In this document: positions 9,195 through 62,170 of the stretch, in pieces
Layout of the letters: each line of letters starts with the position of its first letter
How positions within the stretch are numbered: position 1 is the stretch's first letter
Assembly (NCBI RefSeq): GCF_001310085.1
Contig: NZ_CP012643.1
Location: 2,139,001-2,203,000, forward strand
Origin: Rufibacter tibetensis
GTDB taxonomy: Bacteria > Bacteroidota > Bacteroidia > Cytophagales > Hymenobacteraceae
Reading direction: 5' to 3'
DNA length: 64,000 nt
Position numbers and translations under genes: made by a program
The notes under the pieces: model-generated
Database searches by the model: none
Told to the model about the DNA's origin: nothing
What the model saw: only the letters and a program-made list of their open reading frames with translations

Positions 9195-9229
9195 GTTTTT
9201 GGGCTATTTTCTTAATTCTGGGCAGAAAC
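9195..9229. repeat. Dispersed palindromic element, copy 1
   Basis: The left arm GTTTTTGGGCTATTTTC matches the window-wide consensus arm GTTTTAGGNCTGTTTTC well. The right arm (CTGGGCAGAAAC) is degenerate. It lies between the DUF4175 and exonuclease genes. Confidence 0.4.
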
Positions 9230-9328
9230 GAAATAGGGTAGAAAAATAGTCTCTATTACAATGTGGTCAAGGGCTATCTCAAGCTATACAATAAAAGGGC
9301 ACTGATGTCCACAGAATGCAGAAAACAA

Positions 9329-9376
9329 AAATGCGTTCTTGACCTGTATTCTAGGAAACAGATCAAGAACGCATTT
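9329..9376 (-). terminator. Terminator of the exonuclease III gene
   Basis: The arms AAATGCGTTCTTGA (9329-9342) and TCAAGAACGCATTT (9363-9376) are perfectly complementary around a loop of about 20 nt. It lies 21 bp past the exonuclease stop codon. Confidence 0.7.
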
Positions 9377-9397
9377 GTAAAGTTAATACCAGATACC

Positions 9398-10171
9398 TCA
9401 GTTTTCCACCGGATGCATCTCCAACAGAACAGGGCAATGGTCAGAGTGCTTGGCCTCAGGTAGAATGGCAGCCCGTTTCATTAACGGTTTTAAATGCTCT
9501 GATACCAGAAGATAATCTATACGCCAGCCCAGATTTTTGGCTCTAACGTTAGCCCGATAGCTCCACCAGGTATACTGGTGTGGCTCGGTGTTGAAGTGAC
9601 GGAACGAATCAATGTATCCATCCTGCAGGAAACCGGAGAACCAGTTCCGTTCCTCGGGCAGAAATCCAGAGGAGTTTGCGTTAGATTTCGGGTTGTGTAT
9701 ATCAATGGGCTGGTGGCAGATGTTGTAGTCTCCGCAAATGACCAAACCAGGTACAGTGTCCTTTAAACCCTGAATATACTGTTGAAAATCGCGGAGCCAT
9801 TCCATCTTAAACCCCTGCCGGTGTTCCCCGCTGGAACCCGATGGCATGTAGACATTTAACACAGAATACCCGTTGTAGTCTGCCCGGATTACTCTTCCTT
9901 CGTGATCATACTGCTCAATGCCGCAGCCAATGCACACGTTTTTTGGCTTCACCTTAGATAAGATGGCTACTCCACTGTAGCCTTTCTTTACCGCCGGATG
10001 GATGTACACATGATAGCCAATTTCCTCAAAGCAGACTTTGTCAAATTTGGTCTCATCTGCCTTGATCTCCTGCAGGCAGAGCACATCTGGGTTTGCGGCT
10101 TTCACCCAATCCAGAAAGCCTTTGGAAATGGCAGACCGGATGCCGTTTACATTATAAGTGATAATCTTCAT
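9398..10171 (-). CDS. xth: Exodeoxyribonuclease III / AP endonuclease
   Basis: A 257-residue member of the endonuclease/exonuclease/phosphatase family, close to the usual 250-270 residues. It acts in base excision repair by cutting at abasic sites and degrading 3' ends. The family blocks are all there: start MKIITYNVNGIRSA, metal-binding Glu in CLQEIKAD, YSGVAILSK, GDYNICHQPIDI, RIDYLLVSE, and the C-terminal SDHCPV with the catalytic His. The start overlaps the stop of the upstream small gene by 4 nt (ATGA), so the two are coupled. Confidence 0.95.
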   Translation of the reverse strand: MKIITYNVNGIRSAISKGFLDWVKAANPDVLCLQEIKADETKFDKVCFEEIGYHVYIHPAVKKGYSGVAILSKVKPKNVCIGCGIEQYDHEGRVIRADYNGYSVLNVYMPSGSSGEHRQGFKMEWLRDFQQYIQGLKDTVPGLVICGDYNICHQPIDIHNPKSNANSSGFLPEERNWFSGFLQDGYIDSFRHFNTEPHQYTWWSYRANVRAKNLGWRIDYLLVSEHLKPLMKRAAILPEAKHSDHCPVLLEMHPVEN

Positions 10172-10512
10172 GAACTCATTTCGTCAAAATACTCCAAGGC
10201 ATGCCATTTAAGCATGCGCTCCTGCTCTTTCAGGTTACAGGCCGGCAATGGCTTCACCGATTTCCAATGAGGCCATCCCTCCTGGTCTAAGCCATCCAAT
10301 TCATAATAACCAGATAAACTCAGGAGTTTACAGGTGGCAATGTGCATTAGATCCTGCTTTTCTTCTTTGGTGAACTCCCGCACGCCTTGCCCAAGTTCCT
10401 GCACGCCTACCAAAAAAAGGATGGCATTCAGGTCAGGCTTTTTTCCAAATCTCTTCTTAATGTCCTGACGCAACGCTGCCCACCTAACATCAAAATCTTC
10501 TTCGTTCTCCAT
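10168..10512 (-). CDS. Conserved hypothetical protein upstream of xth
   Basis: A 114-residue soluble, charged protein with no recognised domain. It is mostly helical in character (DIKKRFGKKPDLNAILFLVGVQ; KEEKQDLMHIATCKLL) and ends in an aromatic-rich part (GYYELDGLDQEGWPHWK). No signal peptide or membrane segment is present. It overlaps the exonuclease start by 4 nt, and an exact DnaA box (10523-10531) lies 11 bp upstream of its start codon. Coupling to a repair enzyme hints at a DNA-related role, but this is only context. Confidence 0.75.
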   Translation of the reverse strand: MENEEDFDVRWAALRQDIKKRFGKKPDLNAILFLVGVQELGQGVREFTKEEKQDLMHIATCKLLSLSGYYELDGLDQEGWPHWKSVKPLPACNLKEQERMLKWHALEYFDEMSS

Positions 10513-10522
10513 TGAAATTCTA

Positions 10523-10690
10523 TGTGGATAAGTGGCATACCGCAGAAGTGGATTTCTCTGCCATATCCACCGTCAATCTTAACTCTTTTTGTTTCTTATT
10601 TTATGAAAACAGCCCTAAGACGCTAGTTTAAGTAAATTTTGTCTTTTGCTATTTCTCGTGATTAGATGGAGCAAAAGGCAGTAATCCACA
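10523..10690. promoter_or_regulatory. DnaA-box-like cluster upstream of the xth operon
   Basis: TGTGGATAA at 10523-10531 is an exact DnaA box on the minus strand. AGTGGATTT (10546-10554) and ATATCCACC (10563-10571) match 7 of 9, and TAATCCACA at 10682-10690 matches 8 of 9. The group lies in the 238-bp gap between the small gene and the AhpD-like gene. It may regulate the repair operon or be a secondary DnaA-binding locus. Confidence 0.35.
10605..10621. repeat. Dispersed palindromic element, half copy
   Basis: Only the right arm, GAAAACAGCCCTAAGAC, is well preserved. The left side is T-rich without the core. Confidence 0.35.
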
Positions 10691-10703
10691 GGTAAAAGCA
10701 AAC

Positions 10704-10740
10704 GGTTTAAGGGCTGATTTCCAGAAAACAGGTTAGAAAC
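10704..10740. repeat. Dispersed palindromic element, copy 2
   Basis: The arms GGTTTAAGGGCTGATTTC and GAAAACAGGTTAGAAAC flank a 2-bp centre. This is one of the best copies. It ends 10 bp before the stop codon of the AhpD-like gene. Confidence 0.65.
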
Positions 10741-10750
10741 AGAAATCGTT

Positions 10751-11107
10751 CTAAGCTTGAGTTTGCCCTTCAGTTTTCAGTTCTTCCCAGTACTCCACGG
10801 CTCTTCTGAAATGTGGAATCACAATGGAGCCCCCAATCAAATTGGCAATGGCGAATACCTCGTATACTTCTTCATCTATTAAACCGCACTCAAAGCATTT
10901 GCCCAAGTGGTACTTGATGCAATCATCGCAACGTAATACCATAGAGCAGGCCAGACCCAGCATCTCCTTTGTTTTAACGTCTAGGGCGCCTTCCGCGTAA
11001 GCATTGGTGTCAAGGTTGAAGAAGCGTTTAATTACTTTATTATCCGCCTCCATGATCTTTTCGTTCATGCGGGTGCGGTAGTCGTTGAATTCTTTTACTT
11101 GGCTCAT
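10751..11107 (-). CDS. Carboxymuconolactone decarboxylase (AhpD-like) family protein
   Basis: A 118-residue all-helical protein of the CMD/AhpD family. The redox or active-site segment is RCDDCIKYHLGKCFECG (about 61-77), with the CxxC pair and His that define the AhpD-type site. The start MSQVKEF is ATG at 11105-11107. Family members act as alkylhydroperoxidases or decarboxylases; the short single-domain form cannot be assigned to one reaction. It is transcribed divergently from comF with a 69-bp spacer. Confidence 0.85.
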   Translation of the reverse strand: MSQVKEFNDYRTRMNEKIMEADNKVIKRFFNLDTNAYAEGALDVKTKEMLGLACSMVLRCDDCIKYHLGKCFECGLIDEEVYEVFAIANLIGGSIVIPHFRRAVEYWEELKTEGQTQA

Positions 11108-11176
11108 TATTATGCTTCATTAATGGCGGCATGCTGCGCCGCTATGTAAAGTTACATCAAAATCCGCAAGTAGGTT

Positions 11177-11890
11177 ATGCCACAGCTGCAGATAGGCCTT
11201 AGGTCGCTTTACCATGATTTTCTTGCCCTGCTTTTCCCGGAGGATTGCCGGGCCTGTGCCGGCGAACTTGCCCTAGGAGAAGAAGTAATTTGCAGCCACT
11301 GCCGTATCAAACTCCCTTACACAGATTTTCACCTCTCCCCTACCCAGAACACCTTGCATGAAGTTTTCTGGGGACGAGTGCCGATCAAGCTAGCCGTGGC
11401 TTACCTGAAGTTCCAGGAGAAAGGGCGCGTACAACGGTTGCTCCACCAATTGAAATACAAAGGACAGCAAGAAGTAGGTGAAGTATTAGGGAGATGGTTC
11501 GGGGCCCAGATACGGGAACAGGAAGATTTCAGATCTGTAGAGCTGGTAGTACCGGTACCTCTGCATAAAAGCAGGTTAAGGCAGCGTGGCTATAACCAGG
11601 TAGAAGGGTTTGCAAAAGCCATTGCAGATGATTTGGAAGTACCCCTGTTAGCAGATGCTTTGAGGAAGAATTTTGTAAGTGGTACCCAAACCACGAAAAA
11701 CCGACAAGCCAGATGGGAAGCCATGCGGCAGCTGTATGAGATTCAAAGACCTGACCTCATCAAAGGAAAACATGTCTTGTTGGTAGATGATGTCATCACC
11801 ACGGGTGCTACCATTGAAGCTTGTGCGGAGATCCTGCTGAAGAATGAGGCTAGTGCGGTTAGTGTTGCCTCTATTGCCTATACTTTATAG
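11177..11890 (+). CDS. comF: ComF family phosphoribosyltransferase-like protein
   Basis: A 237-residue protein of the ComF family, linked to DNA uptake during transformation in other bacteria. The N-terminal zinc finger has Cys pairs CRAC and CSHC (about 21-39). The C-terminal PRTase domain ends with the PRPP loop LLVDDVITTGAT (about 203-214), and the usual VPVPLHKSRLRQRGYNQ block is present. It converges on the GldJ/K-like gene across a strong bidirectional terminator. Confidence 0.92.
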   Translation: MPQLQIGLRSLYHDFLALLFPEDCRACAGELALGEEVICSHCRIKLPYTDFHLSPTQNTLHEVFWGRVPIKLAVAYLKFQEKGRVQRLLHQLKYKGQQEVGEVLGRWFGAQIREQEDFRSVELVVPVPLHKSRLRQRGYNQVEGFAKAIADDLEVPLLADALRKNFVSGTQTTKNRQARWEAMRQLYEIQRPDLIKGKHVLLVDDVITTGATIEACAEILLKNEASAVSVASIAYTL

Positions 11891-11908
11891 GAGTGACCCT
11901 AAACCCTT

Positions 11909-11949
11909 ATAAACAAGAAAGGCCGGATATACCGGCCTTTCTTGTTTAT
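11909..11949. terminator. Bidirectional terminator between comF and GldJ/K-like gene
   Basis: An 18-bp perfect stem has ATAAACAAGAAAGGCCGG (11909-11926) pairing with 11932-11949 around a 5-nt loop. A/T-rich outer arms give a U-tract in both directions, which suits the convergent genes. Confidence 0.85.
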
Positions 11950-11966
11950 GAATATGAGGTGATTTC

Positions 11967-13154
11967 TTATTTGTTTGAGCCAGTGTTGATCATAGCGCAA
12001 CGGAAACCAATAGTAGATGTGGCAGAATCCTGCTCCATGAAACGACGGGTTCCTGGAGATAACCAGTATGCTACGTCTTTCCAAGAACCACCTTTGAATA
12101 CACGAACTGTGTTAGTGATCAAAGACTGGAAGCCAGCTACGTCATATAAAGATGAGTCATCTTGTACCCCGTTTCTACGAACCGGGTTTAAGTCTTCCAC
12201 ATCCTGGAAGGAAAGCGGACGGTACACATCTTGTACCCACTCATTCACGTTACCAGCCATATTGTATAGACCGAAGTCATTTGGTGGGTAAGCGTACACA
12301 TACTCGGTGATCATGGCACCATCATTCAATGAGCCAGCAATACCGGCGTAGTCACCACGGCCACGCTTGAAGTTAGCCAGGAATTGACCTTGTCCTTTAC
12401 CATAAGGGTTACGCACCTGGTGTCCATCCCAAGGATAGATACGCTTGTTGGTTTGGTTTTCTTCTTCATCTAACTGAGTACCAATCAAAGCTTGGGCAGC
12501 GTATTCCCACTCAGCTTCTGTTGGGAGACGGTAGTTCGGAAGAACGGCACCAGACTCAATTGGAGGGGTAGATCCTTCTGCCAATTCGCCATCGAATTTA
12601 CTAGCCAGATTTTTGTTTACCATGGCTGTTCTCCAGGTACAATAATCCTGCGCTTGTAACCAACTCACCCCTACTACCGGGTAGTAGCGGAAACCTGGGT
12701 AACGCAGGTAATAGTTTACATAAGGGTCATTGAAGGAAAGCTCACGCTCCCAAACAGTAGTGTCTGGCAAAGCTTTCGCGTAAATTTCTTCAGAAGAGTC
12801 TTTTCTGATATAGTGCAGGTACTCTAACCAGTGAATGTTGGCAACCTCGGCCTCATCCATGTAGAAAGAAGCCACAGTAACGGTACGCTCAATGTTGTCA
12901 CGGGTCATGGCCACATCTTCCTCAGAAGAACCAAGGGTAGTTCTACCTCCTTCAATAAATACCAAACCTGGACCAGCGGGTACGTTTCTATAGTCTGCTA
13001 CAGCAAAACCCCCTTCTTCTTCATCATAGGAGATGCCGGTAGCAGTACTATTCTTCCCAGGGTCTTGGCTTGTGGGACGTTTGTTCTTGGAACAGGAGGA
13101 AAAAACAATCGCTCCTGCGGCCAACACGTACAGTAAATGTTTAGACAGTTTCAT
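11967..13154 (-). CDS. GldJ/GldK-like SUMF1-domain lipoprotein (gliding/T9SS)
   Basis: A 395-residue lipoprotein from the ATG at 13154: signal peptide MKLSKHLLYVLAAG and lipobox with Cys21 (VFSSC). The rest is a formylglycine-generating-enzyme-like (SUMF1/FGE) domain: GLVFIEGGRTTLGSS, YMDEAEVANIHWLEYL, PVVGVSWLQAQDYC, YRLPTEAEWEYAA, NMAGNVNEWVQD, FKGGSWKD, GFRC. This architecture is that of GldJ and GldK, the outer-membrane lipoproteins of gliding motility and the type IX secretion ring. Which of the two is uncertain. A PorP/SprF gene lies 74 bp upstream in the same orientation, strengthening the T9SS link. Confidence 0.85.
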   Translation of the reverse strand: MKLSKHLLYVLAAGAIVFSSCSKNKRPTSQDPGKNSTATGISYDEEEGGFAVADYRNVPAGPGLVFIEGGRTTLGSSEEDVAMTRDNIERTVTVASFYMDEAEVANIHWLEYLHYIRKDSSEEIYAKALPDTTVWERELSFNDPYVNYYLRYPGFRYYPVVGVSWLQAQDYCTWRTAMVNKNLASKFDGELAEGSTPPIESGAVLPNYRLPTEAEWEYAAQALIGTQLDEEENQTNKRIYPWDGHQVRNPYGKGQGQFLANFKRGRGDYAGIAGSLNDGAMITEYVYAYPPNDFGLYNMAGNVNEWVQDVYRPLSFQDVEDLNPVRRNGVQDDSSLYDVAGFQSLITNTVRVFKGGSWKDVAYWLSPGTRRFMEQDSATSTIGFRCAMINTGSNK

Positions 13155-18266: not shown

Positions 18267-18279
18267 CTATTTCTATCAC

Positions 18280-18332
18280 AACCATAAAAGAAGAGGGGAA
18301 GCCACGGTGGCTTCCCCTCTTCTTTTATGGTT
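18280..18332. terminator. Bidirectional terminator after DUF4382 gene
   Basis: A long perfect inverted repeat has AACCATAAAAGAAGAGGGG pairing with CCCCTCTTCTTTTATGGTT around a small loop containing CCACGGTGG. It ends the DUF4382 gene and serves the convergent DinB-like gene. Confidence 0.85.
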
Positions 18333-18340
18333 GAACTACT

Positions 18341-18376
18341 GTTTCAAGGCTGATTTTCTGAAAACAGCTTTAAAAC
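18341..18376. repeat. Dispersed palindromic element, copy 3
   Basis: The arms are GTTTCAAGGCTGATTTTC and GAAAACAGCTTTAAAAC. It is a very well preserved copy, 11 bp from the stop codon of the DinB-like gene. Confidence 0.7.
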
Positions 18377-18387: not shown

Positions 18388-18873
18388 TCAGATCTCCAGG
18401 TCCTGGCCGTACTGAATGCGCACGTACGTAACGTAGTCAGAGTTGATGGGCTCATGACCAGCTAACCGCAATTCGCGAGCTACCTGACCGCGGTGGTAGG
18501 TGGCGTGGTTGATGGCGTGGGTAAGAATGTCCTGTACCTTGGTAGAATAGGCTTTGCCTTGGGTGTTGGTGTACTCAATGGTACGGTTCAGTTCGGCTTC
18601 ATCAGCGTTGGCGTAGAGCTCAGCTAGCTTGGCAGACGTTTGCTCATGCAGTTGGTGCAGCTCTTGCAGGGAATGTCTTTGCAGAACAGTTACCGGGCTT
18701 TTAGTGCCAGTGATGCGCGCAATCCAGATGGCTTGAGCATTTAAAACGTGGCTGAACATAAGTTGGGCATAATCAGGAAGATCTCCCTGAATGCGATCCA
18801 GGCTTTTGAGTATGCGCCAGTTGGCCCATACGTTATATTCTGTGAGGTTCTTAAGTACGTCGTTTGTAGTCAT
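18388..18873 (-). CDS. DinB family protein
   Basis: A 161-residue four-helix-bundle protein of the DinB/DUF664 superfamily. The metal-binding histidines are in place: one in MFSHVLNAQAIWIARI (about 44-60), and HAINHATYHRGQVARELRLAG near the C-terminus. Members are often bacillithiol- or mycothiol-dependent transferases or hydrolases; which reaction applies here cannot be told. A possible minus-10-type TACTTTTG lies at 18924-18931 upstream. Confidence 0.85.
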   Translation of the reverse strand: MTTNDVLKNLTEYNVWANWRILKSLDRIQGDLPDYAQLMFSHVLNAQAIWIARITGTKSPVTVLQRHSLQELHQLHEQTSAKLAELYANADEAELNRTIEYTNTQGKAYSTKVQDILTHAINHATYHRGQVARELRLAGHEPINSDYVTYVRIQYGQDLEI

Positions 18874-19350: not shown

Positions 19351-19446
19351 CTTTAGACCATACGAGATAAAGATACGGCAGATGCAAGTTCTGTTATTCA
19401 GCAATCCTTACCAAACAGATCTTCCACCTCATCTTTATTACGGAAA

Positions 19447-19494
19447 GACCATTACAAGAAAGGCCACTCACCGGTGGCCTTTCTTGTAATGGTC
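19447..19494. terminator. Strong hairpin terminator after acyltransferase gene
   Basis: GACCATTACAAGAAAGGCCAC pairs perfectly with the segment ending at 19494 (arms of about 21 bp, 5-nt loop). It lies 19 bp past the stop codon of the minus-strand acyltransferase gene. Confidence 0.85.
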
Positions 19495-19513
19495 TCAGTG
19501 CAAGTGCTGGAAG

Positions 19514-26284: not shown

Positions 26285-26333
26285 AAACTAAAACAGAAAG
26301 GCCCGCAAGTTGCGGGCCTTTCTGTTTTAGTTT
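26285..26333 (+). terminator. Terminator of the susCD operon
   Basis: AAACTAAAACAGAAAGGCCCGCAA and its complement form a near-perfect stem of more than 20 bp with a minimal loop, followed by a T tract. Confidence 0.88.
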
Positions 26334-27884: not shown

Positions 27885-27966
27885 GTCTGTTAGAAAATGG
27901 TGAATAGGTTAGATGCTTCAAAACTACGGAATTATTCAGAAAAGCGGACGTTCATTCTTCCGCCCG

Positions 27967-28001
27967 CTTTGAGTCTGTTTTCTGGAAAAGAGACTTATAA
28001 C
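27967..28001. repeat. Dispersed palindromic element, copy 5
   Basis: The arms CTTTGAGTCTGTTTTC and GAAAAGAGACTTATAAC flank a 2-bp centre, in the gap between fumC and the GH10-like gene. Confidence 0.65.
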
Positions 28002-29692: not shown

Positions 29693-29729
29693 GTTTTTGA
29701 AGCTGTTTTTTGAAAATAGGTCCTAAAAT
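29693..29729. repeat. Dispersed palindromic element, copy 6
   Basis: The arms GTTTTTGAAGCTGTTTTTT and GAAAATAGGTCCTAAAAT. A very good copy, 12 bp from the dipeptidase stop codon. Confidence 0.65.
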
Positions 29730-30619: not shown

Positions 30620-30710
30620 GAAGGTGTTTCGTAAAGGCTAGAGCGATAAGTTGCTCAGAACAGGCTTTTCTTTTCCATTGCCTCAACAACTAATTCCTCC
30701 AAAAAAATCA

Positions 30711-30745
30711 TTTTACGTCTCCTTTTCTAAAATAGTGGCTGAAAC
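30711..30745. repeat. Dispersed palindromic element, copy 7
   Basis: The arms TTTTACGTCTCCTTTTC and AAATAGTGGCTGAAAC flank a 2-bp centre. It lies about 90 bp upstream of the small membrane-protein gene. Confidence 0.55.
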
Positions 30746-30921
30746 AGGGTTTGATCTTAGACTATAAATATAGTTAAGTTTTAATATTATGGATCTCTTG
30801 GTGCAGAAGGGCCGTGAAATTTGAACAAAGGTGAGAGTAGATGAAGTTTTAGCCTCGTTTGGGAAAAGGAGCTTTGAGACCCATTTACCTCTAAGAAAAG
30901 CAGGCAAAGCTGTGTAATAAA

Positions 30922-31290: not shown

Positions 31291-31291
31291 G

Positions 31292-31328
31292 CTTTAGAGC
31301 CTGTTTTTAGAAAATACCCCTGAAAGAC
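31292..31328. repeat. Dispersed palindromic element, copy 8
   Basis: The arms CTTTAGAGCCTGTTTTTA and GAAAATACCCCTGAAAGAC, directly after the terminator of the M16 remnant. Confidence 0.6.
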
Positions 31329-32157: not shown

Positions 32158-32171
32158 CCATATATTTCCTA

Positions 32172-32206
32172 TTTCTTAGTTGTTTTCTGAAAAGTGCATC
32201 AGAAGC
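32172..32206. repeat. Dispersed palindromic element, copy 9
   Basis: The arms TTTCTTAGTTGTTTTC and GAAAAGTGCATCAGAAGC. The 3' edge lies 2 bp from a TAAATTTG box at 32209-32216 that fits the Bacteroidota minus-7 element for the thioredoxin gene. Confidence 0.5.
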
Positions 32207-32838: not shown

Positions 32839-32890
32839 CTATAAACAAGAAGGCCTGCCAATCTACATTGGCAGGCCTTCTTGTTTATAG
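32839..32890. terminator. Bidirectional terminator between DUF6952 and TetR genes
   Basis: A perfect 24-bp stem runs from CTATAAACAAGAAGGCCTGC to its complement, with a 4-nt loop (CTAC). It serves convergent genes. Confidence 0.9.
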
Positions 32891-35260: not shown

Positions 35261-35356
35261 CCTATCTTTTCTGGTGAAATGGGGGGGCAGTTCTAGTGTG
35301 AAAACCTTGAGTGCAGGCTTACAAAGAACAGCAATTGCACTAGAAAACCCACCACG

Positions 35357-35390
35357 CTTTGGAGGTATCTTTCGCAAAAGACCTGTAAAA
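35357..35390. repeat. Dispersed palindromic element, copy 10
   Basis: The arms CTTTGGAGGTATCTTTC and AAAAGACCTGTAAAA, between the carotenoid desaturase and the GT-C-like gene. Confidence 0.5.
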
Positions 35391-35443
35391 TGGACCTTCC
35401 AGGAAGGAAGTTGCTCAAGATATCTTAGGAGGAGCAGCAGTTC

Positions 35444-37020: not shown

Positions 37021-37056
37021 GTTTAGAGACCTTTTTCTACAAACCAGCCCTGAAAC
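37021..37056. repeat. Dispersed palindromic element, copy 11
   Basis: The arms GTTTAGAGACCTTTTTC and AAACCAGCCCTGAAAC. The right arm ends directly against the stop codon of the SRPBCC gene (37058). Confidence 0.65.
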
Positions 37057-37057: not shown

Positions 37058-37501
37058 CTAGTGTACTTTCCCGAAAAACTTTCGGTACACTGGTCCTCTT
37101 AAAGAAAATTGAGCATACATAACAGGGTACAGCAGCAGGTCCAGGATACGGGAGTTGGTGCGGAACTCAATCAATTCATGAATCACGCTGTGCGAGCCTT
37201 CCTGCGTGATAAGGTGTTTGTGCCGCCAATAGGTAAGCGGGGCCGGTAACTCCTGCCCTACGTCTACAAACCAGGCTTCCTGGTTATGTTCCTCCCGCTC
37301 GGTGATCAGGCTGGTCCACCGTGGCTTGATTGGGCCGGCTTGTAACTCAATTTCCACGCGGTCTCCGGGAAAGCTTCCATCAAATCGTAAAATTTTTAAC
37401 CGGGGGAATGGGGGTGAAAGGGCCTGAAACAGGTCTACTGTAAAACCTTCTAAAACAGCCCGGTGATTCTGGGCGACAGGTATCTGAAGATGGAGTTTCA
37501 T
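37058..37501 (-). CDS. SRPBCC family protein linked to carotenoid desaturase
   Basis: A 147-residue START/Bet v1-like (SRPBCC) protein from ATG 37501 (MKLHLQIPVAQNH). The fold pattern is visible: an N-terminal strand, two short helices (FTVDLFQALSPPFPRLKILRFDG), and a C-terminal helix (LLYPVMYAQFSLRGPVYRKFFG). These proteins bind hydrophobic ligands and are often annotated as cell division inhibitors next to crt genes in Bacteroidota. It probably assists carotenoid handling (inference). It lies 126 bp upstream of the desaturase in the same direction. Confidence 0.8.
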   Translation of the reverse strand: MKLHLQIPVAQNHRAVLEGFTVDLFQALSPPFPRLKILRFDGSFPGDRVEIELQAGPIKPRWTSLITEREEHNQEAWFVDVGQELPAPLTYWRHKHLITQEGSHSVIHELIEFRTNSRILDLLLYPVMYAQFSLRGPVYRKFFGKVH

Positions 37502-39081: not shown

Positions 39082-39131
39082 AAACAGCATCGCCTACTGA
39101 TACATAGCTATCAGTAGGCGATGCTGCTTTT
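39082..39131 (+). terminator. Terminator of the tandem paralogue pair
   Basis: AAACAGCATCGCCTACTGATA pairs with the segment 39111-39131 around a 6-nt loop, and ends in TTTT. Confidence 0.85.
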
Positions 39132-39304
39132 ATGCTGTTTTTGAGAAACCGATGAGTAAACAACTTCAAAACAGGATTTTGTAGAGCTACTTTTATATAG
39201 TGAAGAAGAAATACGAAATATTTTTAGTAGTATTACTAACCTGTATTTCTGTACAAGGTGCTTTATATGTAATACGAACTCAAGATTTAATTATATCTTC
39301 TTAC

Positions 39305-39934: not shown

Positions 39935-39971
39935 GTTTTGCTGCCGTTTTCCTGAAAAGATGCTCATAAAG
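39934..39971. repeat. Dispersed palindromic element, copy 12
   Basis: The arms GGTTTTGCTGCCGTTTTC and GAAAAGATGCTCATAAAG. It begins at the stop codon of the DUF2939 gene. Confidence 0.6.
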
Positions 39972-40923: not shown

Positions 40924-40966
40924 GGTGTTGTTCTTCTGCGCTTGCCACGCGCATTTCTTTTTTCTG

Positions 40967-41001
40967 TTTCTGACCTGTTTTTCTAAAATCGAGGCAAAAA
41001 C
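40967..41001. repeat. Dispersed palindromic element, copy 13
   Basis: The arms TTTCTGACCTGTTTTTC and AAATCGAGGCAAAAAC, 17 bp past the end of the immunity-like gene. Confidence 0.55.
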
Positions 41002-41535: not shown

Positions 41536-41572
41536 TGGTTCTATGGGTCTTTTCGCAAAACAGCCCCAAAAC
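41536..41572. repeat. Dispersed palindromic element, copy 14
   Basis: The arms TGGTTCTATGGGTCTTTTC and AAAACAGCCCCAAAAC. It ends 2 bp from the stop codon of the SNF2 gene. Confidence 0.55.
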
Positions 41573-44514: not shown

Positions 44515-44703
44515 GGCAAAGGCTTCCTAACCCAATACTGAAAGTACAACAAAATCTCTTTTCACCGAAGTAAAAGACAAAAATTTTAGCACATCTTACA
44601 AAATTTAACATAAACAGAACAGTTTACCTGCCAGTTTTTGAAAGATGTGGTTAAAATAGGAGCCAAAGTGGTAGCGAAATGCCAGTATACTCTGCTAAAC
44701 CTG

Positions 44704-44738
44704 TTGTTAGGGTCTTTTGGTGAAAACAGGCTGAAAGC
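44704..44738. repeat. Dispersed palindromic element, copy 15
   Basis: The arms TTGTTAGGGTCTTTTG and GAAAACAGGCTGAAAGC, 4 bp from the stop codon of the permease gene. Confidence 0.55.
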
Positions 44739-46591: not shown

Positions 46592-46682
46592 TTTGCTGGA
46601 GTGAACACGTGAAACAGGTTTCTTTCCGGTGAAGGTAGCTTTTCTTTGAAAGTTGCCAAAATCAAAGATTTAGCCTTCGTTC

Positions 46683-46715
46683 TTGCCCTGTTTTTCAGAA
46701 ACAGATCAGAAACAC
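46683..46715. repeat. Dispersed palindromic element, copy 17
   Basis: The arms TTGCCCTGTTTTTC and AAACAGATCAGAAAC, 21 bp past the methyltransferase stop codon. Confidence 0.55.
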
Positions 46716-48153: not shown

Positions 48154-49563
48154 TTGATACGATTCTTCCGCAGTTTGTTTCCGTCCAGGTGGGTGGTGTT
48201 GGTACTGCTGTTTCTCCTCATCCGGCTTCCGTTGCTCATTTTTGGGCTTCCTGCTACACTCTCAGAGCTGCATCATGTGCTGCTTGGCGAGCGCTTGCAC
48301 CAGGGTTTTACGCTTTACCAGGATGTATATGACACCACCGCTCCGCTGTCTGCCGCGGTGTACTGGCTCCTGGATATTATAGTGCCCCGCTCTTATCTGG
48401 CGCATCGCTTGCTGGCTACGTTCCTGCTGGGCTACCAGGCGTTTCTATTGAATTTTATTTTCAACCGTAACCAGGTTCATCCTTACAAGTCATTCGTTCC
48501 TGCGCTGCTGTATATGCTGTTTGGGAGCATCTTCTTTGAGCTGGATGTGCTTTCTTCTTTATTGATTGGGCACACGTTTGTCTTGCTGGCCGTTTCCAGC
48601 CTCACCGCCATCTCTAAAGAAGCCTCAAACGCTGGTCGCTTGTTCAAGGCTGGTTTCATGCTGGGGCTAGCTGCTCTCTGTTACCTGCCTCTAATCTGGT
48701 TTTTAGTGCTGGGCTTCTTTGCGGTCATTTACTTTGCCTCTGGTGCCTTTAGAAGCACGTTATTGATGCTGACGGGCTTTTTGTTCCCATTCAGCGTGGT
48801 GCTCACCTATTTCCTGTACCAGAATTCCCTGGGGGCCTTCCTGGAACAGGGGCTTACGTGGTCCTGGCGGTTTGCCTTTGCCTTTGGATTGCCTTTCGGG
48901 CAGGTGATGACCATTGCAGCACTTCCCCTGGGTATGTTGGTATTGTCTTTCCTGAGCTTGCCCCTCATCAACCTGGGGCCTAATTACCAGGCACGTTTCC
49001 TGCAGTTCATGCTGATCTGGACCATCATTGTAGTATTGGTACTCATTAGTGGGCACGATGCTTCTGTGAAGGGCTTGATTGTGCTGTTGCCTCTGCTCTC
49101 CTACTTCGGGATTTTTCTGTTTAGCTGGTGGGGAAACCGCCTTTGGATTGCAGAACTCCTGTTCCTGGTAGTTATAGTGGGAGTAGTGGCAGTACGGTAC
49201 AACCCACTGGGGCTGGTCTATACCGCCTTGAAGATTGAACCGAAACGGGTACAGGTACAAGACCATCCAAAATACCAGCAGGTGCAAGGAGAACGGCTGT
49301 TGGTGCTTGGGCCAGACCTTAATTACTACCAGAACAACAGCTTGGGCTCCCCTTACCTGCGCTGGGATTTAGCAAGTCCTTACTTTGGGCGATTGAATTC
49401 CTACGAATCACTTTTTACCATTCTGCAGGATTTACGGAATAATCCTCCCTCCTACATTGTAGACCAGCAGAACCTCATGCCAGAACTGCAATACAAGCTG
49501 CCATTAATATTCCAACGCTACGAAAAGGTGGAGAATGGACCATTCTACCGCCGGGTGCGGTAA
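48154..49563 (+). CDS. Multi-pass membrane protein (DUF6427-like / GT-C-like)
   Basis: A 469-residue protein with about ten membrane helices and a soluble C-terminal part (KRVQVQDHPKYQQVQGERLLVLG). The start is TTG (48154, MIRFFRSLFPSRW), with no ATG in frame before the first helix. The early loop LLGERLHQGFTLYQDVYDTTAPLSAAVYWL resembles the acceptor-facing loop of GT-C glycosyltransferases, and the overall layout is that of the Bacteroidota DUF6427 family. The exact role is unknown. Confidence 0.7.
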   Translation: MIRFFRSLFPSRWVVLVLLFLLIRLPLLIFGLPATLSELHHVLLGERLHQGFTLYQDVYDTTAPLSAAVYWLLDIIVPRSYLAHRLLATFLLGYQAFLLNFIFNRNQVHPYKSFVPALLYMLFGSIFFELDVLSSLLIGHTFVLLAVSSLTAISKEASNAGRLFKAGFMLGLAALCYLPLIWFLVLGFFAVIYFASGAFRSTLLMLTGFLFPFSVVLTYFLYQNSLGAFLEQGLTWSWRFAFAFGLPFGQVMTIAALPLGMLVLSFLSLPLINLGPNYQARFLQFMLIWTIIVVLVLISGHDASVKGLIVLLPLLSYFGIFLFSWWGNRLWIAELLFLVVIVGVVAVRYNPLGLVYTALKIEPKRVQVQDHPKYQQVQGERLLVLGPDLNYYQNNSLGSPYLRWDLASPYFGRLNSYESLFTILQDLRNNPPSYIVDQQNLMPELQYKLPLIFQRYEKVENGPFYRRVR

Positions 49564-49575: not shown

Positions 49576-49610
49576 GTTTTCAGCCTGTTCTCAGGAAAGA
49601 AGCCCTAAAG
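49576..49610. repeat. Dispersed palindromic element, copy 18
   Basis: The arms GTTTTCAGCCTGTTCTC and GAAAGAAGCCCTAAAG flank a 2-bp centre. It lies 12 bp past the stop codon of the plus-strand gene. Confidence 0.65.
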
Positions 49611-49799
49611 CCAGGATTTGCCTGTCTTCAGCCTCCTGCAACCTCAATGTAATGGTTATCCCTTGTGGTTGCTAATTGCTGATCACTCTTATTTATATCG
49701 GTTACTTCCCTGATTAATGTCTTTAATCTTTGATGCTGTTTAACTCAGCAAAAGGGATTATTCCGTTTATGGCCTTGCTTACTGAAAATGACTTTTAAA

Positions 49800-49826
49800 C
49801 AGAAAGGGCACCTACAAGAGGTGCCC
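49800..49826 (-). terminator. Terminator of the glyA-tatC-rpiB operon
   Basis: The hairpin GGGCACCT (49806-49813) with AGGTGCCC (49819-49826) has a 5-nt loop. On the minus strand it is followed by TTTCTGTTT. Confidence 0.65.
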
Positions 49827-52546: not shown

Positions 52547-52582
52547 GTTTTAGGACCGTTTCCCAGAAAACGAACAAAAAAC
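52547..52582. repeat. Dispersed palindromic element, copy 19
   Basis: The arms GTTTTAGGACCGTTTCC and GAAAACGAACAAAAAAC flank a 2-bp centre. Confidence 0.6.
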
Positions 52583-52696
52583 TATAGGCAAGGCTGAGGG
52601 TTTTTACCAAGGCTCTGTTATTATATTTGAATCTGTTTTTACAAAAAAAGCATTTAAACCCACCTTTCTTTTCTATAGAAAACATAGAGTTTAGAG

Positions 52697-56461: not shown

Positions 56462-56497
56462 GTTTTAAGGTAAATTTTTGTAAAACAGCAGATAAGC
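56462..56497. repeat. Dispersed palindromic element, copy 20
   Basis: The arms GTTTTAAGGTAAATTTTTG and AAAACAGCAGATAAGC, between the phosphoesterase and the small disordered protein gene. Confidence 0.5.
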
Positions 56498-56502
56498 GGC
56501 AT

Positions 56503-56799: not shown

Positions 56800-56855
56800 A
56801 ATCCCTCCTTTTCTAGTTTAAAATAGATATTCAAAAAATTGGCCTGAAACGGCTA

Positions 56856-58169: not shown

Positions 58170-58205
58170 GTTTTAGCATCGTTTTACAAAAAACAGAGTA
58201 CAAAC
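58170..58205. repeat. Dispersed palindromic element, copy 21
   Basis: The arms GTTTTAGCATCGTTTTA and AAAAAACAGAGTACAAAC, in the divergent gap between the SDR and pterin dehydratase genes. Confidence 0.55.
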
Positions 58206-58268
58206 ACGGAGGCGCAGAAAAATACGAAGCCCTGCCATTCAGCTAATTCACTTACCTAGACAAACTTT

Positions 58269-58514: not shown

Positions 58515-58520
58515 CGTTTA

Positions 58521-58554
58521 TTTTGAGGTCCTTTTCTGAAAAGAGCCCCCAAAC
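58521..58554. repeat. Dispersed palindromic element, copy 22
   Basis: The arms TTTTGAGGTCCTTTTC and GAAAAGAGCCCCCAAAC. It starts 7 bp past the stop codon of the pterin dehydratase gene. Confidence 0.65.
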
Positions 58555-58596
58555 ACCTGCTAACTTAGAAGGCAAGTCTCAGAACTCAATTTTCCG

Positions 58597-58604
58597 TATC
58601 TTTG
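58597..58604 (+). promoter_or_regulatory. Candidate minus-7 box of rsmI
   Basis: TATCTTTG matches TAnnTTTG and lies 4 bp before the rsmI ATG, which implies a nearly leaderless transcript. No TTG is seen at the usual distance. Confidence 0.3.
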
Positions 58605-58608
58605 ACCT

Positions 58609-59298
58609 ATGGCCGAGCCTATAGAAGAAACCAGTTTGTATTTAGTGCCCACACCTATCGGGAACCTGGAGGACATCACCCTCCGGGCAATTCGTATCCT
58701 GAAAGAGGTAGACGTGGTGCTTGCCGAAGATACCCGCACCAGCGGAAAGCTCCTGAACCATTTGGGCATTGACAAACGCATGCACAGCCACCACCTGCAC
58801 AATGAGCACAAAGCCGTGGCGCATTTAGTGGAGCGCCTGAAGAAAGGCGAGAAAATGGCCATGGTCTCAGATGCCGGAACCCCCGGAATCTCTGATCCTG
58901 GCTTTTTGTTAGTGCGAGCATGCGTGCAGGAAGGCATCAAGATTGAGTGCCTCCCTGGCCCTACCGCGTTTGTGCCGGCACTGGTAAAATCTGGCTTCAG
59001 TACCGATCGTTTCACGTTTGAAGGATTCCTGCCCATTAAGAAAGGACGCCAGACGCGATTGCAGAGCCTGGCGCAGGAAGAACGCACCATGATTTTCTAT
59101 GAGTCGCCGCATCGGGTGCTCAAGACGCTGGAGCAGTTCAAAGAAGTGTTCGGGGCAGAGCGCATGGTCTCGGTGAGCCGTGAAATAAGTAAGATGTTTG
59201 AGGAAACTCTAAACGGCACCTTGGAAGAGATGGTGCAGACGTTTACTACCAAAGCAATCAAAGGAGAATTTGTCATTGTTGTTCAAGGAAACAAATAA
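58609..59298 (+). CDS. rsmI: 16S rRNA (cytidine(1402)-2'-O)-methyltransferase RsmI
   Basis: A 229-residue member of the tetrapyrrole methylase fold. Family motifs: LYLVPTPIGNLEDITLRAI, VLAEDTRTSGKLL, MAMVSDAGTPGISDPGFLLVRAC, CLPGPTAFVPALVKSG and MIFYESPHRVLKTLEQ. It adds the ribose methyl on C1402 in the ribosomal P site together with RsmH. It ends inside the start of lnt, so the two are translationally coupled. Confidence 0.97.
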   Translation: MAEPIEETSLYLVPTPIGNLEDITLRAIRILKEVDVVLAEDTRTSGKLLNHLGIDKRMHSHHLHNEHKAVAHLVERLKKGEKMAMVSDAGTPGISDPGFLLVRACVQEGIKIECLPGPTAFVPALVKSGFSTDRFTFEGFLPIKKGRQTRLQSLAQEERTMIFYESPHRVLKTLEQFKEVFGAERMVSVSREISKMFEETLNGTLEEMVQTFTTKAIKGEFVIVVQGNK

Positions 59299-60904
59299 TC
59301 GTTTTTACCTCCCTTTGTTGGCGTTTCTGAGCGCCTTCTTATTGTGGTTGGGTTGGCCGGTGAAACCACTGGCTATTTTCTTGTTTATAGGCTGGGTGCC
59401 GTTCCTATTCATGGAGCGGGCCATCTCGGCTAAAAATGAGCCTAAGCGCGGACGCACGTTCTTCAAGAACGCGTACTTGATGCTACTGCTCTGGAACATC
59501 TTCACCACGTATTGGGTGAGTTACTCCACGCTGGGCGGCGGTATAGCAGCCGTGGTGTTCAATGCGCTGTTCATGTCAGTGCCCATGATGGCGTTCTTCT
59601 GGACCAAACGAGCCGCGGGTAACACCATTGGGTACTTAAGTTTGCCCGTGTACTGGATCGCGTTTGAGCAGTTTCACCTCAACTGGGACTTAAGCTGGCC
59701 CTGGCTTACGCTGGGCAACGGCTTTGCGTCTTTGCCAAGCTGGGTGCAGTGGTATGAATATACCGGCTTCTTGGGCGGCTCGCTTTGGGTGTGGGTTGTG
59801 AACCTGCTGGTGTTTTTCGCTATTACTTCTCCGAAGAAAAAAGCGAGTAAATGGGTTGCGCCAGCGTTGGTGCTCCTGCTACCCATAGCGCTGTCGTTTT
59901 ATATTGGCAGTCAATACCAGGAACAAGGCGATGCCGCCGAGATTGTAGTGGTGCAGCCCAACGTAGATCCGTACAAAGAGAAGTTTGAGGGTGGTGAAGG
60001 CTACATTCCGTTTGAGCAACAGTTTGAACGGTTAATCAAGTTGTCAGAAGAGCAGATTACGCCTAACACCAGGTTTGTGCTCTGGCCCGAAACGTCTATC
60101 AGCAACGGCATTAACTGGGAAGAAGGCTTTGAGCGGACGCCCATCAGTTACACCTTACGCGATTTCCTGAACCGGCATCCGGGTTTGGAGTTGGTATCTG
60201 GGATTACCTCTGCCCGGTTGTATCCAGATTCTACCAAGAAAAGCGCCACCGCTCGTTTCCACGAGCAGATTGGCTATTATGACGTGTACAACGCTGGTCT
60301 GCACTTCAAACCAACTGGTCAGCACGAGTTCTACCACAAATCAAAACTGGTGCCGGGCGTAGAGAAGACACCTTATCCGGGGATGTTCAAAGCCTTGAAG
60401 ATGTTCGCCATTGATTTGGGCGGCATTGCCGGGAACATGGGCACGCAGGAAACCCGAGCCGTTTTCAAGCACAGCCAGAACCCAGATCTGGTGGGAGCGC
60501 CGGTGGTGTGTTACGAATCCATCTATGGCGAGTACGTGAGCGAATACATCCGGAACGGAGCCAGCGCCATTTTCATCATCACCAATGATGCCTGGTGGAG
60601 CGATTCGCCGGGATACAAGCAGCACCTGGCATATGCCTCTTTGCGGGCCATTGAAACCAGACGGTCGGTGGCGCGTTCAGCCAATACAGGTATCTCGGGG
60701 TTCATCAACCAGAAAGGTGAGTTGTTGCAGAAATCAGGTTGGTGGGTGCCTGCCGCCTTGCGCGGAGAAATCAGGTTTAACCAAGAGCAGACATTCTACA
60801 CTCGCCACGGCGAGTTCATTGGGCACGGGACACAGTGGTTAGCCATTGGGTTGGTGGCAGTGGCTATTGTGCTCGGGCTTATCCGACGTACCGCCAAAAG
60901 ATAA
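59270..60904 (+). CDS. lnt: Apolipoprotein N-acyltransferase
   Basis: A 544-residue inner-membrane enzyme that adds the third acyl chain to lipoproteins. It has N-terminal membrane helices (about 8-200) followed by a nitrilase-fold domain. The catalytic triad is visible: Glu in VLWPETSISN, Lys in YHKSKLVPGVE and Cys in VVCYESIYGEYV. The start must be non-ATG: TTG codons lie at 59270, 59276 and 59279, and an AAGGAG at 59261-59266 is best spaced for the one at 59276. It overlaps rsmI by up to 29 nt. The window encodes many lipoproteins that Lnt would mature. Confidence 0.93.
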   Translation: MSLLFKETNNRFYLPLLAFLSAFLLWLGWPVKPLAIFLFIGWVPFLFMERAISAKNEPKRGRTFFKNAYLMLLLWNIFTTYWVSYSTLGGGIAAVVFNALFMSVPMMAFFWTKRAAGNTIGYLSLPVYWIAFEQFHLNWDLSWPWLTLGNGFASLPSWVQWYEYTGFLGGSLWVWVVNLLVFFAITSPKKKASKWVAPALVLLLPIALSFYIGSQYQEQGDAAEIVVVQPNVDPYKEKFEGGEGYIPFEQQFERLIKLSEEQITPNTRFVLWPETSISNGINWEEGFERTPISYTLRDFLNRHPGLELVSGITSARLYPDSTKKSATARFHEQIGYYDVYNAGLHFKPTGQHEFYHKSKLVPGVEKTPYPGMFKALKMFAIDLGGIAGNMGTQETRAVFKHSQNPDLVGAPVVCYESIYGEYVSEYIRNGASAIFIITNDAWWSDSPGYKQHLAYASLRAIETRRSVARSANTGISGFINQKGELLQKSGWWVPAALRGEIRFNQEQTFYTRHGEFIGHGTQWLAIGLVAVAIVLGLIRRTAKR

Positions 60905-60945
60905 TCCTACACAAGTTCCGCGCAGGCGGGCTTTACGCTAAAACT

Positions 60946-61746
60946 ATGACAGACATATCATCGCTTCGGGACCAGGTAGTAGTCCTTACCAAAGAAGTAG
61001 GCAAGTTCATCTTTCAGGAAGCCTCTAACTTTGACGTGTCCAAACTGGAGCACAAAGGGCTGAACAACCTGGTTTCCTACGTAGACAAAGAAGCCGAACT
61101 GCGTTTAGTGGCCGGTTTAGAGAAATTGATCCCAGAGGCAGGTTTCATAACTGAAGAAGAAACCAAAACAGAGCAAGCCGAGGAGTTCAACTGGATCATT
61201 GACCCACTAGACGGCACTACCAACTTTATCCATGGCTTGCCGGTGTACTCGGTAAGCATTGCCCTTATGCAGCGGGATGAACTTATGATAGGCGTAGTCT
61301 ATGATATTACTCGCGATGAGTGCTACCACGCGGTGAAAGGCGGCGGTGCCTTCTGCAATGACCGTAAGATATCAGTTTCTGATGCTCCTACCCTGGGTGA
61401 TTCGCTTATTGCCACTGGGTTCCCTTACTACAGCTTTGACGCTATGCAGAAATACCTGCAGGTGATGGGTGCCTTTATGCAGGGTTGCCATGGTGTACGC
61501 CGCCTAGGGTCTGCCGCCCTGGACTTGGCCTACGTAGCGGCCGGAAAGTTTGAAGGATATTTTGAGTTCAACATCAATTCGTATGACGTGGCCGGGGGTG
61601 CCCTGCTGGTGCAGGAGGCCGGTGGTCAGGTAACAGACTTCAGGGGAGGCAAAGATTACGTATTCGGACGGCAGATCTGCGTGAGCAACAACCCTACCGT
61701 GCAACAAGAGATGCTAAAACTGATTGAGCCTTTCTGGAAAGAATAG
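60946..61746 (+). CDS. Inositol monophosphatase family protein
   Basis: A 266-residue Mg-dependent phosphatase, start ATG 60946 (MTDISSLRDQVVVL). The signature FNWIIDPLDGTTNFIHGLPVYSVSIAL carries the metal-binding Asp pair, GFITEEE gives the metal-binding Glu, and SYDVAGGALLVQEAGGQVTDF is the C-terminal signature. It may act on inositol phosphate, fructose 1,6-bisphosphate or PAP (CysQ-like); sequence alone does not decide. It is 41 bp downstream of lnt and likely in its operon. Confidence 0.93.
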   Translation: MTDISSLRDQVVVLTKEVGKFIFQEASNFDVSKLEHKGLNNLVSYVDKEAELRLVAGLEKLIPEAGFITEEETKTEQAEEFNWIIDPLDGTTNFIHGLPVYSVSIALMQRDELMIGVVYDITRDECYHAVKGGGAFCNDRKISVSDAPTLGDSLIATGFPYYSFDAMQKYLQVMGAFMQGCHGVRRLGSAALDLAYVAAGKFEGYFEFNINSYDVAGGALLVQEAGGQVTDFRGGKDYVFGRQICVSNNPTVQQEMLKLIEPFWKE

Positions 61747-61760
61747 AAGCAGAAGCTCTG

Positions 61761-61795
61761 CTTTAGCCCTGTTTTCCTGAAAGCGGACCTAAAAC
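61761..61795. repeat. Dispersed palindromic element, copy 23
   Basis: The arms CTTTAGCCCTGTTTTC and GAAAGCGGACCTAAAAC flank a 2-bp centre. This is among the closest copies to the consensus. Confidence 0.7.
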
Positions 61796-61854
61796 GGCTT
61801 TTCTAGTATCATAGATTATACCTATCTAAATCAAGCAGCCGGTTAAACTATTTC

Positions 61855-61862
61855 TACCTTTG
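61855..61862 (+). promoter_or_regulatory. Candidate minus-7 box of the Cys-rich protein gene
   Basis: TACCTTTG fits TAnnTTTG, 19 bp before the ATG at 61882. No TTG lies at the standard distance upstream. Confidence 0.35.
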
Positions 61863-61881
61863 CCAGCGTTAAGAATCTGTT

Positions 61882-62064
61882 ATGGTACAGGAAATCATTG
61901 TTTTTTTAGTCTTCGCTTTAGCGGCAGTTTACCTGCTTCGGATGGGGTACAAAAGCTTCTTTTCCAAAAACGCTGGTTGTGACAAGGGCTGCGGCGGAGC
62001 CTGCTCTACCATTGATCTGGCTAAGATTGAACGCGAAATGAAGGCAAAGCAAGCCTATAAATAG
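61882..62064 (+). CDS. FeoB-associated Cys-rich membrane protein
   Basis: A 60-residue protein with one N-terminal membrane helix (IIVFLVFALAAVYLLRMG), then a Cys-rich segment (NAGCDKGCGGACST) and a charged helix (DLAKIEREMKAKQ). It matches the FeoB-associated Cys-rich family, which usually lies beside feoB and may assist ferrous iron uptake. No feo gene is in the window. A strong terminator follows. Confidence 0.85.
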   Translation: MVQEIIVFLVFALAAVYLLRMGYKSFFSKNAGCDKGCGGACSTIDLAKIEREMKAKQAYK

Positions 62065-62082
62065 TATCTTCTTATTTAATTG

Positions 62083-62124
62083 AAAGCGAAGGGCCGTTTC
62101 CAAAAGGAACGGCCCTTCGCTTTT
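62083..62124 (+). terminator. Terminator of the Cys-rich protein gene
   Basis: AAAGCGAAGGGCCGTT (62083-62098) pairs with AACGGCCCTTCGCTTT (62108-62123), with a T tract after. Confidence 0.88.
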
Positions 62125-62135
62125 AAGACTTCCCT

Positions 62136-62170
62136 GTTTTAGTTTGTTTTTCCTAAAACAGCCAGGAAAC
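62136..62170. repeat. Dispersed palindromic element, copy 24
   Basis: The arms GTTTTAGTTTGTTTTTC and AAAACAGCCAGGAAAC flank a 2-bp centre, directly after the terminator of the Cys-rich gene. Confidence 0.65.

Follow-up and report, generated by a model that had tools for sequence, protein, structure and literature searches.

Introduction

Short, high-copy extragenic palindromes are known in bacteria as repetitive extragenic palindromes (REPs) and as BIME and REPIN elements with their RAYT proteins; they are described as lying mainly between unidirectional and convergent genes (PMC3733652) and are defined by a GTAG/GTGG or CGTC tetranucleotide at one hairpin end (PMC3733652, PMC6006769). Gyrase has been proposed to act on the REPs of E. 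coli, which sets a precedent for a role in DNA topology (PMC3733652), and RAYTs of subclass 2.6 are said to have atypical structures on their flanks, of which further copies occur in the same genome (PMC6006769). The DNA uptake sequences (DUS) of the Neisseriaceae are reported as single 10-mer units that are common inside genes, differ in dialect, reach 2,245-5,918 copies and form inverted pairs associated with terminators (PMC3630211). A DNA-bound protein such as LacI can also stop RNA polymerase as a roadblock (PMC4132739, PMC10310618); a genome-wide roadblock site at gene ends was not found in the literature searched. Here we describe a 36-bp palindrome that recurs between the genes of Rufibacter tibetensis (genome G000, 5.4 Mb), both in a stretch of 64 kb of its chromosome (C1:2139001-2203000, hereafter the window) and throughout the genus. 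We tentatively propose that it is the double-stranded DNA recognition site of a putative sequence-specific dimeric protein that would serve as a boundary at the ends of transcription units.

The Rufibacter palindrome resembles REPs in being extragenic and in lying between unidirectional and convergent genes. Unlike them, it carries no GTAG/GTGG or CGTC tag in its consensus or flank profile, and no cognate flanked RAYT was found, although no letter-by-letter comparison was made with the “atypical structures” of subclass 2.6. It is, moreover, a symmetric site with a near-fixed 2-bp centre that is kept at orthologous gene ends across the genus. Thousands of copies, species dialects and an association with terminators are shared with DUS and related uptake signal sequences (PMC3630211), whereas the Rufibacter site is a mostly intergenic 36-bp palindrome with about one copy per gene end and few strong solo halves. 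Bidirectional intrinsic terminators of the same genomes are likewise palindromic and located at gene ends; unlike them, the palindrome has no GC-rich stem with a T-tract, its arms barely co-vary, and it occurs both beside and without terminators.

Results

In the window, 19 half-arm matches with at most 3 mismatches were found, against a mean of 0.96 and a maximum of 4 in 100 dinucleotide shuffles. The whole palindrome with at most 10 mismatches gave 31 register rows (several registers per site) and none in 5 shuffles; in this test, as in those for the two larger sets of copies and for solo halves described below, the shuffles preserved only the single-base make-up. A position-weight scan called 32 copies in the window, 29 of them intergenic. 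An earlier note on this DNA had reported about 25 copies of a 35-bp palindrome with a 2-3 bp centre, present in roughly half of the gaps, never inside a gene and of no named family known to its author. The element is real and all ten copies singled out there as the best were recovered, with starts within 2 bases; “roughly half” is correct, since 22 of the 40 gaps of at least 60 bp are occupied. The number and size were set too low, three copies lie within predicted open reading frames (ORFs; Table 1), and, with gaps of 0-6 tried, 115 of 122 copies have a 2-bp centre and the remaining 7 a 1-bp centre. As to the missing name, no Rfam family reached its gathering score within the window, and no description of a Rufibacter palindrome or intergenic repeat was found in the literature searched.

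Two larger sets of copies were collected. A symmetric weight matrix iterated over 1.14 Mb from 16 Rufibacter genomes yielded 512 copies (first set; one position in shuffled DNA exceeded the cut-off), and separate matrices for each genome, applied to 1.84 Mb from the 16 genomes of the genus, yielded 924 (larger set). Genes were called with our own codon-score caller, not a published program, with the codon scores of G000 applied to every genome.

The consensus is GTTTTnGGSCTGTTTTY-nn-RAAAACAGSCCnAAAAC, with arms of 17 bp. Variation is almost absent from the T-tracts (positions 3-4 and 14-16) and their mirror images, position 6 is free and position 9 is mostly C or G. Alignment of half-sites resolves each half into a YGTTTT and a CTGTTTT box that follow each other head to tail at a distance of 11 bp, so that a site holds four YGTTTT-like boxes with its halves inverted (box > box > / < box < box); in G001 both boxes read CTGTTTT. 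Across the 16 genomes CG is depleted in the centre (55 versus 133 expected) and CA/TG is enriched (288 versus 192), a bias that is strongest in G012 and G013. The arms are similar when copies are oriented by transcription. Orientation by the centre likewise left the arms alike in the larger sets (G012, G013 and G000), and a directional site was discarded on these, the sets of 7-18 copies being too small.

The two halves behave as mostly independently conserved parts of one site. If the palindrome functioned as a hairpin, the arms should pair better within a copy than between copies, and this is hardly seen, which argues against an RNA stem. Among 17 possible pairs, the complementarity within versus between copies was 9.60 versus 9.29 in G000, 12.52 versus 12.78 in G005 and 13.62 versus 13.63 in G013; the largest excess was that of G014 (10.60 versus 9.95), and over the 16 genomes the difference ranged from -0.26 to +0.65. 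The compensating stem changes of a structured RNA are thus represented by a weak excess only, and the claim of the earlier note that the arms vary compensatingly is mostly untrue. Its remark that a T-tract is missing was borne out: the profile of 155 oriented copies shows no downstream T-tract, the 3' side carries an A-tract instead, and the profile does not have the GC-rich stem and subsequent T-tract of an intrinsic terminator. Both halves are usually present. Halves scoring above the median half score numbered 958 within palindromes and 98 alone, with 23 solo halves in shuffled DNA; 74 of the 98 belong to G000 and the other 15 genomes have 0-7 each. Solo half-sites or transposon ends were rejected as descriptions of the element on these counts. 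Two inverted half-sites at a fixed spacing, both usually present and each conserved mostly independently, are what a dimer bound to double-stranded DNA would be expected to leave.

The palindrome is retained at orthologous gene ends. Of 791 ortholog pairs, 14 near a stretch end were removed; among the 777 used, both members had a copy in 420 (340 expected if independent), one member in 188 and neither in 169. These pairs are non-independent, as they come from 54 distinct gene ends, the largest of which is present in 15 genomes. The distance from stop codon to copy differs between orthologs by a median of 4 nt (18.5 when shuffled), and the flanks are nearly randomised (identity 0.36-0.39 versus a background of 0.26). 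The gene 18388-18873 of the window, adjoining the copy at 18341..18376, has the palindrome at all nine ortholog ends found. At the end of fumC a scoring copy is present in all 15 other genomes of the genus, 21-27 nt past the stop in 14 and at 80 nt in G012, and by eye it touches the terminator stem in the 15 genomes called, preceding the stem in 14 of them and following it in G012. The window's own fumC copy is weak (score 14.9) and is outside the 32 called. In 9 genomes of other genera the most similar fumC has no copy within 250 nt, even though the FumC of G016 is 93% identical.

Spelling at orthologous loci follows the genome. The genome-specific forms are GTTTTcGGgCTCATTTC in G012, GTTTAGGGGCTgTTTTT in G005 and GTTTTTGGCCTGTTTTC in G007 and G013. 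At position 12, 92% of the half-sites in G012 have C, compared with 12% of their orthologues (13 loci); at position 5, 79% of those in G005 have A, compared with 7% of theirs (19 loci). Such dialects amount to re-spelling in place, either by selection on each site after a change in the protein or by some homogenising process. Site fidelity declines with rising genome size (Spearman -0.80, rounded sizes, 16 genomes); the fumC tree places 8 of the 9 genomes with the poorest fidelity in a single group of weak support, so the correlation may reflect one event.

Copies are concentrated behind genes. In the first set 441 of 512 copies are entirely intergenic in DNA that is 82% coding, and 452 copy centres lie outside and 60 inside a predicted ORF; the centres peak 20-40 bp past stop codons. 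Occupied gaps of this set (n = 371) hold one copy in 306 cases, two in 60 and three in 5. In the larger set, convergent gaps of 80-140 bp with none, one or at least two copies number 10, 48 and 0, where a Poisson placement by length, a model that ignores the room occupied by copies, gives 25.6, 20.6 and 11.8. The same evenness is found in co-directional gaps up to 400 bp.

Terminators were scored with our own hairpin score, and the control for distances between palindrome and terminator disallowed overlap. In co-directional gaps with a terminator, 13 of 83 pairs have the palindrome within 0-5 nt past the stem, where 3.3% are expected, and 3 have it 0-5 nt before (1.0% expected), while 9 further pairs on the after side and 6 on the before side overlap the stem; the convergent gaps show overlap in 21 of 93 pairs. 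Within the genus, terminators were found at 127 of 524 co-directional and 168 of 335 convergent ends, and in five other genera at 39 of 129 and 19 of 57, so that they are about equally common in both; ortholog pairs with other genera (n = 14) are too few for a terminator comparison. Convergent ends have a terminator in 134 of 223 cases with a palindrome and in 34 of 112 without. Nine tRNA genes occur in 58 loci, and 3 of the 7 inspected 3' ends have a copy within 250 nt; at one of these three no terminator is evident by eye. One call in G015 (L097:14179-14255), assigned by ARAGORN to tRNA-SeC, shares bases with a predicted gene and could be spurious.

In G000, half-arms with at most 3 mismatches number 884 against 90 for the backward control. 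The density of 3.1-6.6 copies per 10 kb in each of the 16 genomes (larger set) implies roughly 2,000 copies per genome. The chromosome of G000 has 187 copies in 444 kb, which extrapolates to roughly 2,200 for the genome; each of 19 stretches of 20 kb holds 0-11 copies (mean 8). The chromosomal 20 kb of L009 (G000:C1:1500001-1520000) have zero copies and may be a recently acquired island. A second contig of 235 kb, presumably a plasmid, was sampled over 100 kb, where 2 of 35 eligible gaps are occupied versus 104 of 171 on the chromosome; in contrast, the small third contig (L164, G000:C3, 7.5 kb) has 3 copies.

The palindrome appears special to the genus. The geometry GTTT-N9-TTT-N4-AAA-N9-AAAC occurs 186-1561 times per genome in 16 of 16 genomes (backward control 0-2) and at most 3 times in any of 104 other genomes of the family. 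Among 147 other genomes of the order (10 in the family) there is no clear presence, the highest counts being 15 (control 8) and 6 (controls 1 and 2). Half-arms with at most 2 mismatches number 121-2474 in all 16 genomes (control at most 10) and 0-23 in 23 genomes of other genera, where the controls are similar. A mismatch scan of 20 kb from another genus found none. The exact consensus in a collection of named genomes hit 12 stretches, all from Rufibacter (R. sediminis, R. roseus, R. ruber and R. sp. XAAS-G3-1), which were left outside all copy counts. With up to 3 mismatches allowed, the strict consensus has no match in 118 other genomes of the class, a weak test because it matches merely 5 places in G000 itself. 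As the earlier note had suggested, the palindrome was thus followed through the genome and related genera, and it is genus-wide, absent from the 104 other family genomes and mostly intergenic. The possibility that other genera of the family have a related motif was examined with gapped 4-mers and discarded: 21 stretches from 5 genera, small samples, had no peak like the GTTT-17/28-AAAC pair of Rufibacter. On the fumC tree genus g2 may fall inside or outside Rufibacter, so that loss of the palindrome in g2 is possible. A different repeated palindrome, approximately GTTTTGGGCAAATTTTGCCCAAAAC, recurs in G222 of the same order (e.g. C634:3716-3751) among the 15 geometry hits of that genome (control 8).

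Discussion

The earlier note had offered three readings of the palindrome, namely a binding site for a nucleoid or regulatory protein, a REP/MITE-like mobile element (MITE, miniature inverted-repeat transposable element) and a 3'-end RNA signal. The first fits best with the mostly independent half-sites, the few strong solo halves, the retention at orthologous ends and the dialects. The second is disfavoured by shared positions, an over-even spread, the near-empty second contig and Y1 transposases that do not track the copies, and the third was right about location, with copies past stop codons; the scarcity of compensation between arms speaks against an RNA stem. From these patterns in the DNA we consider it probable that the palindrome is a site for a protein at the DNA level, maintained by selection. 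Given such a site, a boundary or roadblock would be somewhat the likelier of its possible jobs.

In the proposed mechanism, the putative protein would bind as a dimer, or dimer of dimers, with two contacts per half one helical turn apart. It would occupy about 2,000 sites per genome, mostly at the ends of transcription units, past the stop codon or against the intrinsic terminator and usually one per end. Bound there, it would stall RNA polymerase that overruns the gene end or arrives from the opposite gene, both beside terminators and where none is evident, and the dialects would track shifts in its specificity. Stalling of polymerase from either gene would fit the symmetry of the site, the single copy per short convergent gap and the closeness to terminators, as well as the copies behind some tRNA genes and the rarity in short divergent (promoter) gaps.

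Several observations weigh against this proposal. Longer gaps often hold two or more copies and the evenness is lost there. Divergent gaps are occupied in 6 of 33 cases at 70-200 bp and in 40 of 82 at 200-400 bp, although the emptiness below 200 bp was stronger in the first set (1 of 15 occupied) than in the larger set; copies in divergent gaps are not predicted by a pure gene-end marker unless unannotated ends are present there. In convergent gaps 7.5% and 4.3% of pairs lie 0-5 nt from the terminator on the two sides, versus 4.7% and 4.5% expected, so that proximity short of overlap does not exceed chance there. Where orthologs differ in the palindrome, a terminator is present only at the palindrome side in 33 pairs and only at the palindrome-less side in 27, with 103 alike; the palindrome is therefore no simple terminator replacement, and a substitute terminator was rejected because intrinsic terminators are neither lost nor gained with it. 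The information content of 26-51 bits across the 16 genomes, with G000 the most degenerate, exceeds the 11-12 bits that by our arithmetic suffice to locate about 2,000 sites, which suggests an extra constraint or a copying process. Finally, there is a small excess of compensated pairs at positions 5-7 and the first flanking bases (z up to about 6); permutation within genomes gave 10115 pairs versus 9886 expected, an excess of 2.3%, with z of 5.8 and 4.7 at positions 5 and 6.

The main rival is an architectural role, in which a nucleoid protein or topoisomerase binds the site and relieves or confines supercoiling behind genes, so that the boundary is one of topology and not of termination. The position of copies at gene ends, their spread along the chromosome and their near absence from the second contig would all suit it. 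On the other hand, nucleoid proteins usually need less specificity than a site of 36 bp with four boxes and a centre almost fixed at 2 bp, and co-directional copies hug terminators within a few nucleotides above chance, tighter than topology needs. We regard this explanation as rather unlikely.

It is improbable that the palindrome is a self-recognition sequence for DNA uptake with species dialects, spread by biased transformation as in the Neisseriaceae. Such a sequence could account for thousands of copies, dialects, excess information content and depletion on a non-chromosomal contig. Uptake sequences with units of 12 bases are also known. Strong solo halves are nevertheless few in 15 of 16 genomes, most copy centres of the first set lie outside ORFs, and an even spread with about one copy per end is not expected of uptake sequences.

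Little more can be said for a repeat of REP/REPIN or MITE type that a Y1 (RAYT) transposase spread and that was later partly domesticated; this reading is, if anything, still less probable. The location is that of REPs (PMC3733652), Y1 proteins occur in 15 of the 16 genomes, and 12 aligned Y1 proteins, mostly of about 182 amino acids, resemble the Bacteroidetes subclass 2.6 (WQ in 12 of 12, NHxH in 8 of 12). Yet G007, a single contig that is 99% complete, has high-fidelity copies and no Y1 protein by Pfam or by a profile of 12 rows, and G021, from another genus of the family, has 9 Y1 proteins and no palindromes. RAYT genes are flanked by copies within 600 bp on both sides in 5 of 15 cases and on at least one side in 12 of 15 (by eye), compared with fractions of 0.39 and 0.79 for 77 isolated short genes. 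The absence of a GTAG/CGTC tag from consensus and flanks, the retention at orthologous ends and the even spread also stand against it. RAYT-driven repeats were rejected on the copies of G007 and on flanking that equals the baseline.

A hairpin in the RNA at 3' ends, acting as a terminator, processing or stability signal, is very improbable. The location past stop codons would suit it, as would a slight excess of near-perfect copies (0.30 versus 0.19 in G005, 0.15 versus 0.05 in G001) and the z values at positions 5 and 6 (6.0 and 4.7). It has to contend with arms that are hardly more complementary within than between copies, with the A-tract on the 3' side, with the same element standing either before or after the terminator, and with a window that has no Rfam match. 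Homogenisation by gene conversion or another copying process, under which the dialects would need no selection at each site and which would thus tell against a selected protein site, is the least probable of all: arms with little locus memory (0.676 at the same locus versus 0.647 at different loci), an information content above need and dialects that are uniform within several genomes agree with it, but the centre keeps some locus memory (0.396 versus 0.295; weaker, 0.342 versus 0.305, counting each locus once), as do the flanks to some extent, and 36 bp of homology are by general knowledge short for conversion.

Returning to the boundary at transcription-unit ends, we hold with less confidence a wider picture of chromosome-wide punctuation. 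A putative DNA-binding protein special to the genus would act on some 2,000 four-box palindromes, roughly one for each end of a transcription unit. It would bound transcription in both directions, next to terminators or in their place, and its specificity, drifting between species, would re-spell the sites in place. We know of no comparable genome-wide protein-based mark of gene ends in bacteria. If true, transcription units would be delimited by means beyond hairpins and Rho, with related genera without the site as a natural control, and the dialects would offer a testable case of one binding specificity co-evolving with about 2,000 sites. Even under duller readings, the palindrome is a very abundant family, re-spelled between species and present in all 16 sampled genomes of the genus, for which neither Rfam, searched with the window, nor the literature searched gave a name.

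Copies in the window

The copies called in the window are listed in Table 1.

Table 1 Palindrome copies called by the position-weight scan, with positions in the window
Feature	Position	Strand	Score	Remarks
Copy (weak)	9195..9230	.	19.6	flanked by two minus genes
Copy	9335..9370	.	22.9	centre-to-end distance 45 bp, minus gene on right
Copy	10586..10621	.	22.9	
Copy (strong)	10705..10740	.	37.7	centre-to-stop 28 bp, minus gene 10751-11107
Copy (strong)	18341..18376	.	39.5	convergent gap; adjoins inverted repeat 18279-18333
Copy (strong)	27966..28001	.	31.0	
Copy (strong)	29694..29729	.	30.5	orthologous ends with copy 11/12
Copy	30710..30745	.	21.7	divergent gap
Copy (weak)	30845..30880	.	19.1	divergent gap
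Copy	31291..31326	.	29.5	orthologous ends with copy 11/12
Copy	32171..32206	.	22.5	orthologous ends with copy 10/14
Copy	35356..35391	.	21.1	
Copy (strong)	37021..37056	.	30.1	adjoins stop of 37058-37501
Copy	39126..39161	.	21.5	
Copy	39935..39970	.	21.2	begins immediately after stop codon
Copy (strong)	40966..41001	.	33.6	
Copy	41537..41572	.	24.4	
Copy	44703..44738	.	25.5	
Copy (weak)	46678..46713	.	19.8	
Copy (strong)	49576..49611	.	31.8	centre 30 bp past stop, gene 48193-49563
Copy	49765..49800	.	22.7	
Copy (strong)	52547..52582	.	30.7	
Copy	52624..52659	.	24.8	
Copy	56462..56497	.	24.7	
Copy (weak)	56815..56850	.	18.4	
Copy	58170..58205	.	25.1	divergent gap
Copy	58519..58554	.	23.9	
Copy (strong)	61760..61795	.	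35.7	centre 31 bp past stop, gene 60946-61746
Copy	62135..62170	.	26.5	
Three further copies	20304, 37850, 51427		25.3, 19.0, 17.7	inside predicted ORFs

The window also contains four perfect inverted repeats (18279-18333, 26285-26333, 32839-32890 and 19446-19495) with arms of 22-27 bp and 1-6 nt between them. These are probably intrinsic terminators, with arms longer than termination should require.

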